Origin: Treponema sp. | Lineage (GTDB): Bacteria; Spirochaetota; Spirochaetia; Treponematales; Treponemataceae | DNA: 40,328 nt | Assembly (NCBI GenBank): GCA_024695475.1 | Contig: JAILIC010000032.1 | Location: forward strand, 1 to 40,328 | Reading direction: 5' to 3' | Shown: in pieces, positions 28,461 to 39,103 of the stretch | How the letters are laid out: each line of letters begins with the position of its first letter | Numbering within the stretch: the stretch's first letter is position 1 | The notes under the pieces: model-generated | Databases searched by the model: none | Told to the model about the DNA's origin: nothing | What the model saw: only the letters and a program-made list of their open reading frames with translations | Program-made: the position numbers and the translations under genes

Positions 28461-29477
28461 ATGGCTGCTGCCTATCGAGTCTTAATTATTGATGAAAATG
28501 TAGAGGAATTACGCTCATTGACGGACATGCTGGTTTTACACAACATGGAGGTTAGTTCATCAAAAGCAGAGCATGCAGCACTTCGTTTTTTACAGACTAA
28601 CATCCCTGATGCAATCGTTATAAAGGGATGTGACGCGCATTTTAAGCTTCTAGAAACACTCGTCGCAGATGAACGCTTTGTTGCTGTTCCTCTCTTATAC
28701 ATTTTGGAAAGTGATGCTGTTGGCAGCGGTGCTGTAGCATTGGAGGCCGGTGCATTTGACGTATTTACATTACCGTTGCATGATGCTGTTTTTTCTAATC
28801 GTATAATCCATAGCATAGAGTATGTACGTTGTCATCATCGTTGTATCAAAGAAAGTCAAACACCTTTTTCTATTGATATATCGAAAATTGAAGGTATTGA
28901 TTATCATGCTGGAGTACGCAATTGTGCGGGGCTGGATACATTTAAAGAAGCTCTTGCTGAGTTTTATAGGCGCCTTGATGAAAACTATACAAAAATACAA
29001 AAAACGCTCGAGCAAAGCGATTGGAAAAACTTTAGAATCTATGTCCACTCATTAAAGAGCTCTGCACGTCTAATCGGTGCACTGGGATTATCCGATTTGG
29101 CAATGCGACTGGAACATGCTGCAGATACAGAAGATGTATCTGTGATACACGAATTAACCCCAGAGTTACTTTCCTTGTACAAAAGCTATCAAGAAAAATT
29201 ATTGCCTTTTTATACAGAGCAGACAACGGGTGGTGTTGCTCATAATCAGGATAAGCCTCTTATTGATGATGATATGTTACAGTCGGCTCTTGCTGATTTA
29301 AAGGAGTGTGTGGGAATTGCAGATTTTGACAGTGCAGACTTTATCATGCGTTCCTTGAGTGAGTATCAGATTCCTGCTGATAAAAAAGACTATGTGGAAA
29401 AAATAAAAGCAGCTGTGTCAGATGTTAATAAAGAAGAAATAATAAAATTGTTAGAAAAAGGGGAATGGAGTACATGA
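28461..29477 (+). CDS. Degenerate receiver fused to an HPt phosphotransfer domain
   Basis: Residues 1-125 fold like a response-regulator receiver: acidic start IIDENVEEL (Asp11-Glu12) and ending DVFTLPLHDAV. The phosphoacceptor position (IPDAIVIKG) has Lys55 instead of Asp, and the conserved Lys is Leu104, so it cannot be phosphorylated in the usual way. Residues 160-250 are an HPt domain with the phosphohistidine His196 in YVHSLKSSARLIG. The last 65 residues are helical. It is a likely phosphotransfer hub for the kinases and receivers encoded downstream. The stop overlaps the next start (ATGA). No good ribosome site other than AAGGTGA before ATG 28461. Confidence 0.88.
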   Translation: MAAAYRVLIIDENVEELRSLTDMLVLHNMEVSSSKAEHAALRFLQTNIPDAIVIKGCDAHFKLLETLVADERFVAVPLLYILESDAVGSGAVALEAGAFDVFTLPLHDAVFSNRIIHSIEYVRCHHRCIKESQTPFSIDISKIEGIDYHAGVRNCAGLDTFKEALAEFYRRLDENYTKIQKTLEQSDWKNFRIYVHSLKSSARLIGALGLSDLAMRLEHAADTEDVSVIHELTPELLSLYKSYQEKLLPFYTEQTTGGVAHNQDKPLIDDDMLQSALADLKECVGIADFDSADFIMRSLSEYQIPADKKDYVEKIKAAVSDVNKEEIIKLLEKGEWST

Positions 29478-30241
29478 TTAATAATGTGGTCTTTGTAAGT
29501 AATGAGGTTGGTTTTTTAGCAAAGGCGTTAATCAAGAGAGTTGCAGATACAGGATTCAGAATTAAAACGACAGGAGTTGACCTTACAGACTTGCTGGCAA
29601 GTGGATCAATTCCTTCAAGTGTGTTTATCGTGTATTTTGATGGCTTTGTTCAGGATTACGAATTTGTCCTTAAAAAGCTTGGAAAGATCATAATGGAGGC
29701 TTCGTCCCAGTACTTTTTGTATTTGATAGGAACCCCTGCAGAACTAGACTATGCGTATGAAGTTATCCCACATACGATGATTACGAGAGTTTTTAAAAGA
29801 CCTGTTGATCCAAATGATATTATCAATGCTCTGTTAAAAGCAAATCCTGTTGATGCGGTACAACGCAAACGAATCTTGGTGGTTGATGATGATCCTCAGA
29901 TGTTACGTTTGATGAAAACGTGGCTTTCAGATGCCTATGATGTCTATATGGCAAATTCTGGAAAGGCTGCCTTGTCTTTTTTTGAAAAAGAGGGACGTTC
30001 TGTTGATTTAATATTGCTTGATTATGAGATGCCTGAGATATCGGGATTGCAAACCTTTGAAATGTTTAAGAATGACATATACGCATCTGCGATTCCTGTT
30101 ATGTTTTTGACTGCAAAAGATGATCGAGATACAGTTTTAAAAGTACTTGCAGTGCATCCTGAAAAGTATATTTTAAAATCAATGCCCAAGAGAGAAATCC
30201 TAAAAATTGTGAGTGAGTTTTTCTGGAAGAATGCCAATTAG
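29474..30241 (+). CDS. Tandem receiver protein (one degenerate, one intact)
   Basis: The 255-residue protein has two receiver-like domains and no output domain. Domain 1 (residues 1-125) lacks the acidic pair (VVFVSNEVGF) but keeps a lysine at VFKRPVD (Lys108). Domain 2 (130-255) is intact: Asp138-Asp139-Asp140 (LVVDDDP), phosphoacceptor Asp183 (LLDYEMPEISG), Thr213 and Lys235 (YILKSMP). It is a stand-alone phosphate acceptor, CheY- or Spo0F-like, that could take phosphate from HPt His196. I chose ATG 29474, which overlaps the previous stop (ATGA), over ATG 29465. Its neighbours suggest the same relay. Confidence 0.85.
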   Translation: MINNVVFVSNEVGFLAKALIKRVADTGFRIKTTGVDLTDLLASGSIPSSVFIVYFDGFVQDYEFVLKKLGKIIMEASSQYFLYLIGTPAELDYAYEVIPHTMITRVFKRPVDPNDIINALLKANPVDAVQRKRILVVDDDPQMLRLMKTWLSDAYDVYMANSGKAALSFFEKEGRSVDLILLDYEMPEISGLQTFEMFKNDIYASAIPVMFLTAKDDRDTVLKVLAVHPEKYILKSMPKREILKIVSEFFWKNAN

Positions 30242-33739: not shown

Positions 33740-36064
33740 ATGAATTCAATAAGTAATACAAATGAATGGGAATGGTCGCGTGATGCACAACTTGAAGTTG
33801 TTATGTCTGTAACCATTTTTTCAATCGCGCTCATAGTACAGATTGTTTTGTTGAGCTGGGAAGTATGGGTTATTCCTTTTTTGGTGGGCGAAATTATTCT
33901 TTTTTGGACATTACATGTTATCGATATATTGCCACAAAAGTATAAGATTGCGTTATATAGTGCTTTGATATTACTGGAACTGTTTTACTATGGTATTCAT
34001 CCAACGGCTCTATTTGATACACCAATGATAATCATCATTTGTCTTGCACTCTTTTTGTCGATGGATACCCTTTATGCCATTTATATTTGTGGCTTAGAAT
34101 ATATAGTACTTGTGTGCTGGCATAGTTTTGTACTTAAAACAGTTACTTTCCCAATGTCGAGTTCTGATTTTTCGCATCTGTCAGCAGGGGCTATTGCGGT
34201 AGCATTGACCGTCATTTCTAAACGTAATGGTTGTCTTCGTCGTATACATGCGATTGCAAAAAACCGAAGTATTGTCGAAAAAATGGCTGATATAAATCGC
34301 CGTACTGAAGATTTTCTGACGAATGTGACTCATGAGTTACGTACTCCGATAAATGCAGTTATGGGATTAACGAGTTCCTTGTTAAAAACTGAAACTGATG
34401 AGCAAAAACGTTCTGAGTTGTCAGCAATTCAGAAGGCTGGTCATAGGTTGTTTAATCAAATACGTGATATTCTTGATTATTCGGAAATCGGGCTCGGTAA
34501 GATCAAGATATTACATGAGACATATAGCATGCCCTTATTGGTCAGTGAAATAAAGCATGAGATACAAGTATTGAACCAAAATCCTGAAGTAGATTTTATT
34601 TTTGATGTTGATATTCATTTACCGACAGCGTGTGTCGGAGATATCGAAAAAATAAAAACTATTATTCGTCATGTATTGGGAAATGCCGTAAAGTTTACTA
34701 CAACAGGTTGTATCTATGTGCGTCTGTATGCTATCCAGACTTCCTATGGCATTAATCTCTGTGTTTCTGTAAGGGATACTGGAATTGGTATGACTGAGGA
34801 ACAAAAACAGAACATGGATACCCTTTTTTATCAAGGTATGTCAGACCGTACGAGAAAGGCTGGTGGTATAGGTTTGGGTTTTACGGTTGTATCGGGTCTT
34901 ATACAAGTAATGAATGGCTTTTTTCGTATTTCCAGTGAATTGGATAAAGGTACGGAAGTGCATATTAGTATACCGCAGGGGGTCTCTGATGCATTGCCAT
35001 TTTTACTTGATAGTACCAAAGAAATCCGTAGTAAATTATGTATAGCATATCATTTTTCTGTCTATTCAAATGTTTTGGCACGGCCATTTTACAGTCAGAT
35101 GATTGCACATGTGTCAGAAGGCTTGCGCGAGAAAGTTATTGGCATGAGATCCTTGCAGGAAATCCAACAGCTTGCACAGACATATTCATTGACCCATATA
35201 TTTACTACTAAAATCGATTTTGAAAAGAATAGAGATTTGTTTCTTGCAATTGATAAGAATATAAAGATTGTTGTCATTGGTAATGGAAGTTTACTTGGTG
35301 TACAAGCAGATAATATCTTATTCTTTCCAAAGCCTCTTGATACACCGGCACTTATCGAAGTTATTACTGGCAAAAATACAGTCCCTACCTATAACTCTCC
35401 TGATGATCAATTTATTTGTCCGGAAGTAAAAGTATTGAGCGTCGATGATGATCCTATGAATCTGATGGTGGCTAAGAACATATTTAACCAGTATCACATG
35501 GATGTCGTTGAAGCTCATAATGGATTAGAGGCTATTGAATTATGTAAGAAGCAGAATTTTGATATTGTATTCTTGGATCATATGATGCCAGAAATGGATG
35601 GAGTAGAGTGTTTACATCATTTGCGAAGTCTTAATACTCATGCAGAAAAGGATATGATCGTGGTAGCTCTTACTGCCAATGCGGTAAGTGGAGCAAGAGA
35701 AATGTTCCTTAATAATGGTTTTGATGAGTTTATATCAAAACCTCTAGAATTGCCTGTATTAAACCGTGTTTTGAAAAAGTTATTGCCAGTTTCTAAAATA
35801 ACGTATGTTACTAAAGCAGGTGTTGATGGTGGAACTGTGCTGCCTGTTGATGCTTCAAGCGAGCAAAAACTTGATTGTTTGTTACGATCCCTTAAAAAGC
35901 TTGACTATGTTCATTCTTACGATATTTTAAAAAACTTATCTTCTGATGAATTACCTGATATGAGTAAGGTGGTTGAAGCAGTTGAACAGTTTGATTTTGA
36001 GGAAATTATACCAGTAGTTGAAACAGCACTTGTGTCATGTCGAGATAACTCGAGAGGAATATAA
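33740..36064 (+). CDS. Membrane hybrid histidine kinase with degenerate and intact receivers
   Basis: The 774-residue protein begins with five to six hydrophobic segments (residues 19-165), a membrane-embedded sensor. The kinase core is complete: His198 in TNVTHELRTPINAV, the N box RHVLGNAVKFT, DTGIGM and GGIGLGFTVV. Residues about 435-550 form a receiver-like domain without acceptor aspartate (SKLCIAYHFSVYS...). The following receiver is intact (Asp569-Asp571, Asp613 in FLDHMMPEMDG). The last 110 residues are a helical tail, not an HPt (no HxxKG). It starts three bases after the previous stop and is in the same operon. It should be able to phosphorylate the relay. Confidence 0.92.
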   Translation: MNSISNTNEWEWSRDAQLEVVMSVTIFSIALIVQIVLLSWEVWVIPFLVGEIILFWTLHVIDILPQKYKIALYSALILLELFYYGIHPTALFDTPMIIIICLALFLSMDTLYAIYICGLEYIVLVCWHSFVLKTVTFPMSSSDFSHLSAGAIAVALTVISKRNGCLRRIHAIAKNRSIVEKMADINRRTEDFLTNVTHELRTPINAVMGLTSSLLKTETDEQKRSELSAIQKAGHRLFNQIRDILDYSEIGLGKIKILHETYSMPLLVSEIKHEIQVLNQNPEVDFIFDVDIHLPTACVGDIEKIKTIIRHVLGNAVKFTTTGCIYVRLYAIQTSYGINLCVSVRDTGIGMTEEQKQNMDTLFYQGMSDRTRKAGGIGLGFTVVSGLIQVMNGFFRISSELDKGTEVHISIPQGVSDALPFLLDSTKEIRSKLCIAYHFSVYSNVLARPFYSQMIAHVSEGLREKVIGMRSLQEIQQLAQTYSLTHIFTTKIDFEKNRDLFLAIDKNIKIVVIGNGSLLGVQADNILFFPKPLDTPALIEVITGKNTVPTYNSPDDQFICPEVKVLSVDDDPMNLMVAKNIFNQYHMDVVEAHNGLEAIELCKKQNFDIVFLDHMMPEMDGVECLHHLRSLNTHAEKDMIVVALTANAVSGAREMFLNNGFDEFISKPLELPVLNRVLKKLLPVSKITYVTKAGVDGGTVLPVDASSEQKLDCLLRSLKKLDYVHSYDILKNLSSDELPDMSKVVEAVEQFDFEEIIPVVETALVSCRDNSRGI

Positions 36065-39000
36065 ATGATGAGACTACATTTCAATATGTCAATAAAGCAA
36101 AAAAGTATAGTTGTTCTTGTAGCTATTGTATGTGTAGTAGGTGTCGCATTAGGGACACATAGTATTTTTCATTATATGACACGAAGGCAGCTGGTAAATG
36201 ATGTTAATGCTCGTATTCTTGAACTAAAAAGAGATTTGAATAGAGAAATTGTACTTGCGTTGCAAATGGCATTTTCTCCTGCAGTCGTTGATTATTTAAG
36301 TGATCCTTCAAATGAAGAAAAAGAAGCATTAGCATTTAATGAGTTTAAAGAGTTTGAAAATTCATTCTTATCACATATAACCTTTTGGATTTCTGATAAA
36401 GATTTACGGTATCACTCGAATGGTGAGTATCTGTATACGTTGGATAAATCTCTAGCTAATAGTTACTGGTATGAGCGTGCGTTTGCTAAAGAAACCTACT
36501 TGTTCAATGTAAACTATGACCCAGGATTGCAAAAGGTTTTTTTATGGATTGATATACCCGTCTATGATAAGCTAAAACAGCGAGCTGGTATTACAGGAAC
36601 CGGTATCCCTATCAGAGACTTTGTCAATGCTTTGTATGATCGTGTCGATGAAGATGAAACAATGTACCTGTATAATGATCTACAAGAAGTCGTTGGTGCG
36701 ACTGATATTGCTTATCTCGAAGAAAAATGTAATATTTTGACATTGCTCCCTGATCTCAAAAAATTTAACTGTAATCTTATGTCTGATACGATGCAGTTTT
36801 ATTCTTCTTTAAAAGGGGAATATGTCATTGCACCTATCGAGGAATTGGATTGGTATCTGGTGTTATTTATTCCATTTACTCCCAAGGCCTTTATTGAACA
36901 TTCTGCTTTTCCGATTGTACTCCTATTAGTATTTGTTGTTTTCTTCCTCATTGAACGACAAAATCGAATGTATCATAACGAAAATACGATTATACGTATT
37001 CAAAAGCAAGAAATTGAAAAGTTGAATGAAAGCCAGACTCGTTTTTTTGCAAGTATGAGTCATGAGATTCGTACTCCGATTAATACGATTATTGGTCTTG
37101 ATGAAATGATATTACGCGAGAATATCTCTGATGAGGTTGCAGAAGATGCTCGTAATATTGCTGGTGCCAGTAAGATGCTTCTATCGCTTATTAATGATAT
37201 TCTTGATATGTCAAAGATTGAGAGCGATAAGATGGAACTAGTTTCTGCACCATATGAGACGAAGTCAATGTTCCTTGACCTGGTCAATATGGTATGGATA
37301 CGTGCAAAAGAAAAAGCTTTAGTGCTTCATGTGCAAATTGATCCTTCATTGCCATCGGTCTTAAAAGGTGATGAAGTCCGCATTAAGCAAATTTTACTTA
37401 ACTTATTGAATAATGCAATAAAGTATACAAGGGAAGGATCTGTTTCGTTTGCTGTACGATGTGAGATGTGTGGTGATCAAAAGACGCGTCTTATTTGTTC
37501 TGTTAGCGATACGGGTATTGGTATAAAAAAAGAGAATATTCCTTATTTGTTTGATGCATTTAAACGTGTAGAAAACCAAAATAATCATTTGATCGAAGGT
37601 ACGGGGCTTGGATTAACGATTGTAAAGCAACTTATTACTCTTATGAAGGGAACTATCACTGTAGATAGTATTTATACAAAGGGCTCTACATTTACGGTTA
37701 CTATTGATCAAGATATCATAGAAGCAATTCCTGTTGGAGATCTCAAGATTGCTGTTGGTCATGCAATGTATGAGCGACGCTTGCACGAAAAAGTTTTTGA
37801 GGCGCCTTTAGCACAGGTTCTTATTGTTGATGATAATAGTATGAATCTTATGGTTGCTAAAAAACTGCTGCGTGAAACAAAAATGCAGATAGATACTGCT
37901 CCAAGTGCAGCTGTAGCATTAAGCCTTACACTTAACAAATGCTACAATGTGATCTTGATGGACCATCTTATGCCAGAGATGGACGGAATTGAGTGTCTTC
38001 ATGAAATTCGTAAGCAAATTGGCGGAGCTAATCATGATACGCCTGTCATAGTATTAACTGCTAACGCTGGTGAAAAAGAACGGTTGCTATATGAACGTGA
38101 AGGCTTTGACGGCTATTTAACAAAGCCTGTAAGTGGCTTACAGCTGGAAAATGCTGTTGTTGATTTTTTGCCTCCCGAAATAGTACAGTATCAGACTCTT
38201 CAGTCTGATGGCAGTAAACTGTTGATTTCGGGAAATTATAATCGGATAAAAAAAGTACCCGTCATTATATCGACTGACAGTGTGTGTGATTTGCCACAGG
38301 AACTTATTAAGAAATATGATATACCGATTTTGCCGTATAGGGTACGAACTAAAGATGGTATTTTTCTTGATGGTATAGAAATTGATGCTGCTGGTATGTT
38401 ATTTTATCTTGACCACAATGGTATAACGGCTTTTTCTGATTGTCCATCGGTACAAGATTATGAGCGCTTTTTTGCCCAATTGCTTGAAAGGGCTCAATCA
38501 GTTGTGCATATAACGATGTCACGTAAAGTTAGTGAAGGATATAACCATGCTTGTACCGCTGCACAATCATTTAACAATATAAAAATAATAGACTCTGAAC
38601 AGGTATCGAGCAGTACGGGACTTCAAGTATTATGGGCTATTGATTGTCTAAAACAATATGGTTCAGTAGATATGGTGCTACAAGAGTTGCAAGCCAATAA
38701 GAAAATATTCTCGACACTTTTTTTAGTTGATTCTCTTGCATTCCTAAGCGGTACAGGTAGAATCTCGCGTGTGCTGGCAGGTCTGTGTGACTCGTTATTA
38801 CTTAGACCTGCAGTGGAAATGCGGAATGGACGTATTTCTTTAGGTGGCTTTTATTTTGGTCCTCAAAACTTCGTACGCGAACGATATATTCATTCTTTGT
38901 TGGCTCATCCTTCTACTATTGATGACTCAATACTCTTTATTGTGCATGTTGGTTTATCCGAGAGTGAGCTTGATGCTATTAAAAAGCAGGTATTGAAGTA

Positions 39001-39103
39001 TGTGGCATTTAAACAGATATACTTTCAAAGTGCTTGTCCTGCGATAGCAAGTAATGCTGGTAGAGGTGCTTTTGGATTGTTGTTTATGAAAAAAACGAAA
39101 TAA
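36065..39103 (+). CDS. Cache-type hybrid histidine kinase fused to a DegV/FakB-like domain
   Basis: The 1012-residue protein has a span at about 14-33, a periplasmic Cache-like domain (40-275; FWISDKDLRYHSNGEYLYT), and a second span at 279-300. The kinase core is complete: His333 in MSHEIRTPINTI, NLLNNAIKYT, DTGIGI and GTGLGLTIV. The receiver is intact (Asp589-Asp590, Asp633 in LMDHLMPEMDG). From about 730 to the end is a full-length DegV/EDD domain: VIISTDSVCDLPQELIKKYD, PYRVRTKDGIFLDG, a serine-containing SRKVSEGYNHA and GTGRISRVLAG. DegV proteins bind fatty acids, and FakB presents them to a kinase. I know of no characterised kinase carrying this domain. It starts at the base after the previous stop. 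Confidence 0.9.
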   Translation: MMRLHFNMSIKQKSIVVLVAIVCVVGVALGTHSIFHYMTRRQLVNDVNARILELKRDLNREIVLALQMAFSPAVVDYLSDPSNEEKEALAFNEFKEFENSFLSHITFWISDKDLRYHSNGEYLYTLDKSLANSYWYERAFAKETYLFNVNYDPGLQKVFLWIDIPVYDKLKQRAGITGTGIPIRDFVNALYDRVDEDETMYLYNDLQEVVGATDIAYLEEKCNILTLLPDLKKFNCNLMSDTMQFYSSLKGEYVIAPIEELDWYLVLFIPFTPKAFIEHSAFPIVLLLVFVVFFLIERQNRMYHNENTIIRIQKQEIEKLNESQTRFFASMSHEIRTPINTIIGLDEMILRENISDEVAEDARNIAGASKMLLSLINDILDMSKIESDKMELVSAPYETKSMFLDLVNMVWIRAKEKALVLHVQIDPSLPSVLKGDEVRIKQILLNLLNNAIKYTREGSVSFAVRCEMCGDQKTRLICSVSDTGIGIKKENIPYLFDAFKRVENQNNHLIEGTGLGLTIVKQLITLMKGTITVDSIYTKGSTFTVTIDQDIIEAIPVGDLKIAVGHAMYERRLHEKVFEAPLAQVLIVDDNSMNLMVAKKLLRETKMQIDTAPSAAVALSLTLNKCYNVILMDHLMPEMDGIECLHEIRKQIGGANHDTPVIVLTANAGEKERLLYEREGFDGYLTKPVSGLQLENAVVDFLPPEIVQYQTLQSDGSKLLISGNYNRIKKVPVIISTDSVCDLPQELIKKYDIPILPYRVRTKDGIFLDGIEIDAAGMLFYLDHNGITAFSDCPSVQDYERFFAQLLERAQSVVHITMSRKVSEGYNHACTAAQSFNNIKIIDSEQVSSSTGLQVLWAIDCLKQYGSVDMVLQELQANKKIFSTLFLVDSLAFLSGTGRISRVLAGLCDSLLLRPAVEMRNGRISLGGFYFGPQNFVRERYIHSLLAHPSTIDDSILFIVHVGLSESELDAIKKQVLKYVAFKQIYFQSACPAIASNAGRGAFGLLFMKKTK

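Follow-up and report, generated by a model that had tools for sequence, protein, structure and literature searches.

What does a DegV domain of the FakB type do when it is found at the end of a hybrid histidine kinase? This question is raised by a gene of a Treponema sp. that lies in a stretch of 40,328 nucleotides, hereafter referred to as the window (GenBank assembly GCA_024695475.1, contig JAILIC010000032.1). The window is an entire contig (C13) of a 3.17-Mb genome, which is 96% complete. The original prediction described one protein with a Cache-type sensor, a kinase core, a receiver and a complete DegV domain, and it offered two roles for the latter: phosphorylation-gated fatty-acid handling, or cytoplasmic fatty-acid sensing that acts on the kinase. 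Here, these roles are weighed using the domain composition of the protein, the binding-site residues of its DegV domain, its gene neighborhood and its distribution.

A hybrid kinase and a DegV domain in one reading frame

The fusion gene encodes 1012 amino acids in one frame with no internal stops, and an AGAGG-type ribosome-binding site precedes its ATG. The protein can be described as composed of an input region, a HisKA-HATPase core, a receiver and a DegV domain (Table 1). Pfam matches to HisKA, HATPase_c, Response_reg and DegV each lie over the curated cut-off, and the HisKA histidine, the N and G boxes and the receiver aspartate that define a hybrid histidine kinase are all intact. Of the full-length kinase models listed from NCBIfam, none reached its cut-off. 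The DegV domain scored 141.6 bits with Pfam PF02645 (cut-off 27, E 3.9e-41) and 158.6 bits with NCBIfam TIGR00762 (cut-off 99.7), and the profile match, which places it in the DegV family, spans the whole domain.

Table 1 Features of the fusion gene and of the gene cluster that it ends.
Feature	Coordinates	Strand	Basis or remark
Hpt protein, 338 aa, HSLKSS motif, His196	28461..29477	+	overlaps receiver gene
Receiver protein, 258 aa, degenerate N-terminal part and REC (ILLDYEMP)	29465..30241	+	
Two-component-propeller hybrid kinase, 1159 aa	30257..33736	+	inside same gene run
Partner hybrid kinase, 774 aa: multi-TM, HisKA (His198), HATPase, middle region, REC	33740..36064	+	
HK-REC-DegV fusion gene	36065..39103	+	single ORF; Pfam/NCBIfam; 34 further fused homologues
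N-terminal membrane/input region, about residues 1-300	36065..36964	+	AF2 secondary structure
HisKA, residues 324-387; phospho-acceptor His333, codon 37061-37063	37034..37225	+	Pfam
HATPase_c, residues 435-549	37367..37711	+	Pfam
Receiver (Response_reg 585-698); phospho-acceptor Asp633, codon 37961-37963	37817..38158	+	Pfam
REC-DegV linker, 29-33 residues in 35/35 homologues	38171..38263	+	alignment
DegV/FakB-fold domain, residues 735-1009	38267..39091	+	Pfam, NCBIfam

The protein was aligned with its fused homologues in a set of 35 fusions, 13 from the genus of the window and 22 from Lachnospiraceae loci. The genus fusions share 44-48% identity with the window protein and retain all kinase and receiver signatures. 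His333 is a histidine in 35 of 35 sequences, and the HATPase residues N446, N450, D482, G484 and G514 and the receiver residues D589, D590, D633, T665 and K687 are invariant in the same set. Together with the Pfam matches, this invariance bears out the claim that the kinase core, the receiver and a complete DegV domain reside in one protein. The same single frame is found in 12 other genus genomes and at the 22 Lachnospiraceae loci examined, of which one (L098) is possibly split; these 34 other fused homologues, and the intact frame of the window gene, rule out a frame error or gene misjoin. At L098 (8035-10813, G764), the membrane part and the kinase part lie in different frames, by a sequencing frameshift or in a genuinely split gene.

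The input region is more variable. It is Cache-like in nine genus members and a short multi-TM region in four, and the N-terminal region is similarly short in most Lachnospiraceae members. In the window protein, the secondary structure of the full-length AF2 model predicts two long helices that flank a probable Cache-like extracytoplasmic domain; the confidence of this model in the N-terminal domain is no more than moderate. Three orthologues match dCache_1 weakly, under the gathering score, and the window protein has no Cache match at E 0.001. The predicted Cache-type sensor is thus plausible from these weak matches, and it is not proven for the window protein.

The DegV fold and its altered binding site

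The DegV domain was modeled by AF2 with a pLDDT of 95.9 and a pTM of 0.92. Compared with DegV structures, the model aligned over the full length with VIA Z values of 28.7-34.1, and with TM values of 0.82-0.90 to the ligand-loaded ones. It aligned to fatty-acid-loaded 2dt8 with TM 0.88/0.90 and Z 34.1, to 5uto (FakB1 with palmitate) with TM 0.86/0.86 and Z 32.0, and to 4x9x with Z 33.0. Profiles and model therefore agree that this hybrid kinase ends in a FakB-type fold, as had been predicted.

In FakB1 from S. aureus (SaFakB1), Thr62, Ser95, Ser171 and His270 hold the carboxylate of the fatty acid, phosphorylation depends on Arg173, and docking to FakA and the membrane on Arg205 (PMC8892158, PMC9136124). 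Arg173 and Arg205 have been described as completely conserved in the family, and SaFakB mutants in the carboxylate network are unstable (PMC8892158). The residues of the window protein equivalent to T62, S95, R173, R205 and H270 are S791, S823, R899, F931 and N997, so that the window copy itself retains R899 and S823; its carboxylate network at the positions of Thr62, Ser95, Ser171 and His270 consists of Ser, Ser, Thr and Asn. Among the 35 fusions, the T62 position is Ser or Thr in 33, and the S95 position is Ser in 24 and Gly, Val or Asp in 11. The position of Arg173 has kept its arginine in 19 and lost it in 16, that of Arg205 is Arg in a single fusion, and that of His270 is Asn in 33 and His in only one. 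For comparison, 17 other DegV sequences of Bacillota and Mycoplasmatota, which include a few duplicates, have Thr/Ser in 17, Ser in 17, Arg173 in 17, Arg205 in 15 and His270 in 15. Arg173 is also kept in 54 of 55 stand-alone or FakA-linked DegV sequences of the genus and the phylum. The two other changes are not specific to the fusions: Arg205 is absent too from most FakA-FakB fusions, and the His270 position is Ser in most stand-alone DegV of the genus.

With such replacements, the pocket may be empty, altered or collapsed in some fused DegV domains. The main rival explanation is that the domain binds no ligand and is a structural or dimerisation/docking module, which assembles the kinase with its partner kinase or with Hpt. 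The S95 and Arg173 positions vary and yet the DegV domain is always retained, the fusion is nearly always found beside a partner kinase, and carboxylate-network mutants of FakB are, as noted, unstable. However, Ser or Thr at the T62 position and the near invariance of N997 are expected of a site that was changed, not abandoned, and we regard this explanation as rather unlikely.

FakA (Dak2) is encoded in seven other fusion-bearing members of the genus, and no Dak2 was found in the window genome (G000) and in five other fusion-bearing genomes. PlsX was found in none of 9 fusion-bearing genomes, the window genome included, and phospholipid synthesis in the tested genus members probably proceeds without acyl phosphate made by PlsX. 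The window genome is one of six genus members whose sole DegV protein is the fusion. Since FakB residues are lost and FakA and PlsX are absent, serving as a carrier for FakA is not the conserved role of the fused DegV domain.

The gene neighborhood and a candidate phosphorelay

The fusion gene closes a run of five genes on one strand, with overlaps or gaps of no more than 15 bases between neighbors, and its ATG is abutted by the stop codon of the partner-kinase gene (Table 1). The phosphotransfer residues checked in the cluster are intact, namely His196 of Hpt, the Asp motifs of the receivers, His198 of the partner kinase and His333/Asp633 of the fusion, and judging from their sequences the parts look like one phosphorelay. 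An orthologue of the partner kinase lies immediately upstream of the fusion at 7 genus loci and at nearly all Lachnospiraceae loci with enough contig. Orthologues of the Hpt protein are found at L037, L042, L043, L045, L047 and L098, and those of the 258-aa receiver protein, a possible output of the relay, at L040, L045, L097, L098, L135 and L137-L139. No orthologue of the propeller kinase is present at most of the relatives' loci. Elsewhere in the window, the segment 7225-10062 encodes a complete MmeI-type restriction-modification enzyme of 945 aa with all five MmeI domains.

HD-GYP and GGDEF proteins are enzymes that break and make the second messenger cyclic di-GMP. No cyclic-di-GMP gene adjoins the window's own cluster. 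In relatives, an output candidate sits upstream of the partner kinase or downstream of the fusion. It is a REC-HD-GYP protein with the motif present at L039, L041, L046, L122, L125, L129, L131 and L136, a REC-GGDEF-REC-HD-GYP protein at L126, and a REC-GGDEF protein at L135, L139, L140 and L141; single or double receivers are found at the remaining loci. Whole genomes contain 7-22 HD-GYP matches in 2.8-4.1 Mb, and by this yardstick, which is the genome-wide count and not the neighbors of other hybrid kinases, the repeated direct adjacency of HD-GYP is unlikely to be due to chance.

Hpt occurs in three placements: as a stand-alone protein, C-terminally in the partner kinase (L039, L046), and at the end of the fusion after DegV, where Pfam recognised it in L135. 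Tails of 228-272 residues follow DegV in the subclade of L097, L135, L137, L138, L139 and L140. Because Hpt comes after DegV in one subclade, DegV is not the terminal element of the relay.

This placement bears on the proposal that DegV is a true output, in which phosphorylation of the receiver gates a FakB-like carrier in the release, capture or delivery of fatty acid to FakA, PlsX or PlsY. DegV follows the receiver, which is the usual position of an output domain, and it has the full FakB fold; the window copy retains R899, the Arg173 equivalent, together with two carboxylate-binding hydroxyls, and FakA is at hand in the seven genus members named above. Against this stand the missing FakA and PlsX, the loss of the catalytic arginine in 16 of the 35 fusions and the change of His270 to Asn in 33, the Hpt domain after DegV in one subclade and the fixed length of the REC-DegV linker. 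Phosphorylation-gated fatty-acid handling, the first of the two predicted roles, is accordingly disfavored, and we consider it improbable. Sensing or regulation is favored over output because the linker is fixed in length while the N-terminus varies, and because residues for making acyl phosphate are lost. The second predicted role, cytoplasmic sensing, therefore fits better as regards regulation; its fatty-acid ligand is suggested by the fold.

Our preferred reading, to which we give slightly better than even chances, is that the fusion is a sensor or regulator kinase of a multi-gene phosphorelay, in which the FakB-derived DegV domain is a non-enzymatic ligand-binding module. The N-terminal domain would sense a signal from the outside or from the membrane. 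DegV would take up a lipid from the membrane, most likely a fatty acid or else a relative of one with another head group, and its occupancy would alter the phosphorylation of the receiver or kinase, so that lipid status and the first signal would be brought together in one protein. Phosphoryl groups would pass from His333 to Asp633, to Hpt and to receiver proteins, which in relatives would set cyclic-di-GMP levels where such enzymes adjoin. The fused DegV would not serve FakA as a carrier. A fatty acid as the ligand is inferred from the modeled fold only, and the coupling of DegV to kinase and receiver is likewise proposed with a full-length AF2 model that has a pTM of 0.36 and no reliable domain arrangement. 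Precedents exist for the control of kinases by fatty acids: they inhibit the SaeS kinase (PMC5539427), and RpfC, a hybrid kinase, is activated when it binds the fatty acid DSF (PMC5391125).

Distribution, origin and relation to known systems

Among 196 genomes of the window's genus, DegV is found in 40 and the fusion in 13. Within the spirochaetes, the order HisKA-HATPase-REC-DegV thus recurs in this genus, and restriction to spirochaetes is ruled out by fusions in Lachnospiraceae, where about 44 of 299 genomes, counted by hand, have DegV frames of at least 850 residues. The distribution is centered on Lachnospiraceae, which the original prediction did not foresee, any more than the multi-gene phosphorelay or the cyclic-di-GMP enzymes that adjoin it in relatives. 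The examined long frames of this family are kinase fusions of the window type, except two. The exceptions (L142:3790-6375 and L143:4951-7560) represent a second, more divergent kinase-DegV type, in which HATPase and DegV are recognised and HisKA and REC are not; in L142, REC-Hpt and receiver genes lie upstream. When 398 Bacillota genomes were searched with a profile of the fused DegV, the best matches were two long fused frames, both from this family. Outside the genus, the long DegV frames read from 393 genomes of the phylum were Dak2-DegV or over-extended frames, and none were kinases. L073-L078 were considered as further DegV kinases and rejected, as their DegV-bearing frames are Dak2-DegV or over-extended at high GC. 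A similarity search with the DegV domain alone returned only three stand-alone DegV proteins, and plasmid searches returned only generic kinases or ordinary DegV. Single DegV-Dak2 chains of about 600 aa are common in Spirochaetota (L049-L064, L078, L080; within the genus L035:4961-6898), and two Bacillota loci (L146:2913-4085 and L099:4820-6226) encode DegV with an N-terminal extension of 100-190 unrecognised residues.

In the tree, the 35 fused DegV domains group together in a single clade (100/100), which lies beside stand-alone DegV of Bacillota; descent from the genus's own FakB is ruled out by this position. As they form one clade, a single fusion event followed by lateral spread across two phyla is indicated. 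The spirochaete domains are not cleanly separated from those of Lachnospiraceae. We favor Bacillota as the source, to which the sister group and the larger diversity point, while the direction is not proven. It is a tentative proposal, somewhat short of an even chance, that a single conversion turned a FakB carrier into a cytosolic receptor for lipid built into a hybrid kinase, and that its phosphorelay, with interchangeable cyclic-di-GMP outputs, spread among Lachnospiraceae and spirochaetes.

The kinase-DegV system is probably a lipid-responsive signaling system that was previously undescribed. No description of an HK-DegV fusion was found in the full-text literature searched, a scope outside which lie subscription journals and domain-architecture databases; the original claim that no such system is described holds for that literature, and the bare architecture may be listed somewhere. 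The hybrid kinase is of a known kind; its regulatory domain is new and its gene context conserved. The fusion is present in about one in seven of the sampled genomes of Lachnospiraceae, a family prominent in gut and rumen. Cyclic-di-GMP enzymes usually control motility and attachment. Should DegV bind fatty acids, the histidine-kinase protein would contain a cytosolic lipid receptor, derived from a metabolic carrier of known structure and coupled to cyclic-di-GMP enzymes, and would offer a testable link from gut lipids to bacterial behavior. A converted FakB in a phosphorelay would, if true, represent a new class of lipid-to-second-messenger signaling. The fusion also offers a route to study the change from enzyme subunit to receptor, for which the altered residues are known and few.

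Comparison with known systems shows both shared and diverged parts. With FakB/DegV proteins (PF02645, TIGR00762; S. aureus FakB1 and FakB2), the fused domain shares the complete fold and the profile scores; it differs in being joined to a kinase-receiver and in that the Arg173, Arg205 and His270 positions are not kept clade-wide. With hybrid kinases of the BarA/ArcB/TorS layout, the fusion shares the HisKA-HATPase-REC core, all phosphorylation residues and an Hpt, which is present in trans or, in the subclade, in cis behind DegV; it differs in having DegV after the receiver.

The likeness to RpfC/RpfG of Xanthomonas raises another explanation, that the system is a variant of DSF quorum sensing in which DegV senses a fatty-acid signal of neighbors or of the cell itself. 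Several orthologous loci share a multi-TM hybrid kinase and a REC-HD-GYP output, and a fatty acid is the expected class of signal on both sides, as direct fatty-acid binding activates RpfC. RpfC has a DSF-binding N-terminus of 22 residues. At L039 and L046, but not at the window locus, the partner kinase matches RpfC in layout (multi-TM, HisKA, HATPase, REC, Hpt) and lies beside a REC-HD-GYP protein; REC-HD-GYP lies beside the partner kinase also in L041 and at six Lachnospiraceae loci. However, no RpfF-type DSF synthase (PF00378, ECH_1) was matched in 12 genus genomes, in a search where the controls matched, and the layout, in which the likeness consists, is common among tripartite kinases. 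Unlike RpfC/RpfG, the fusion loci have a second kinase with DegV and use GGDEF or plain receivers as alternative outputs, and no HD-GYP gene adjoins the cluster of the window. We judge this explanation to be quite improbable.

The FakA-FakB (Dak2-DegV) proteins of Spirochaetota are likewise covalent DegV fusions, in which the Arg205 position is also not kept. There, the partner is FakA, the enzyme's own partner, and not a histidine kinase, and Arg173 is present in 25 of 25 sequences of the phylum. DhaQ, the Dha-operon coactivator, binds a transcription factor. Its fold (2iu4/2iu6) is of the same class and only distantly related, with a VIA Z of 15 that is far weaker than those of DegV structures. 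DhaQ is a stand-alone protein, unlike the kinase-fused DegV, and it is titled co-activator in its structure entry, a case of a kinase-subunit fold that was reused as a regulator.
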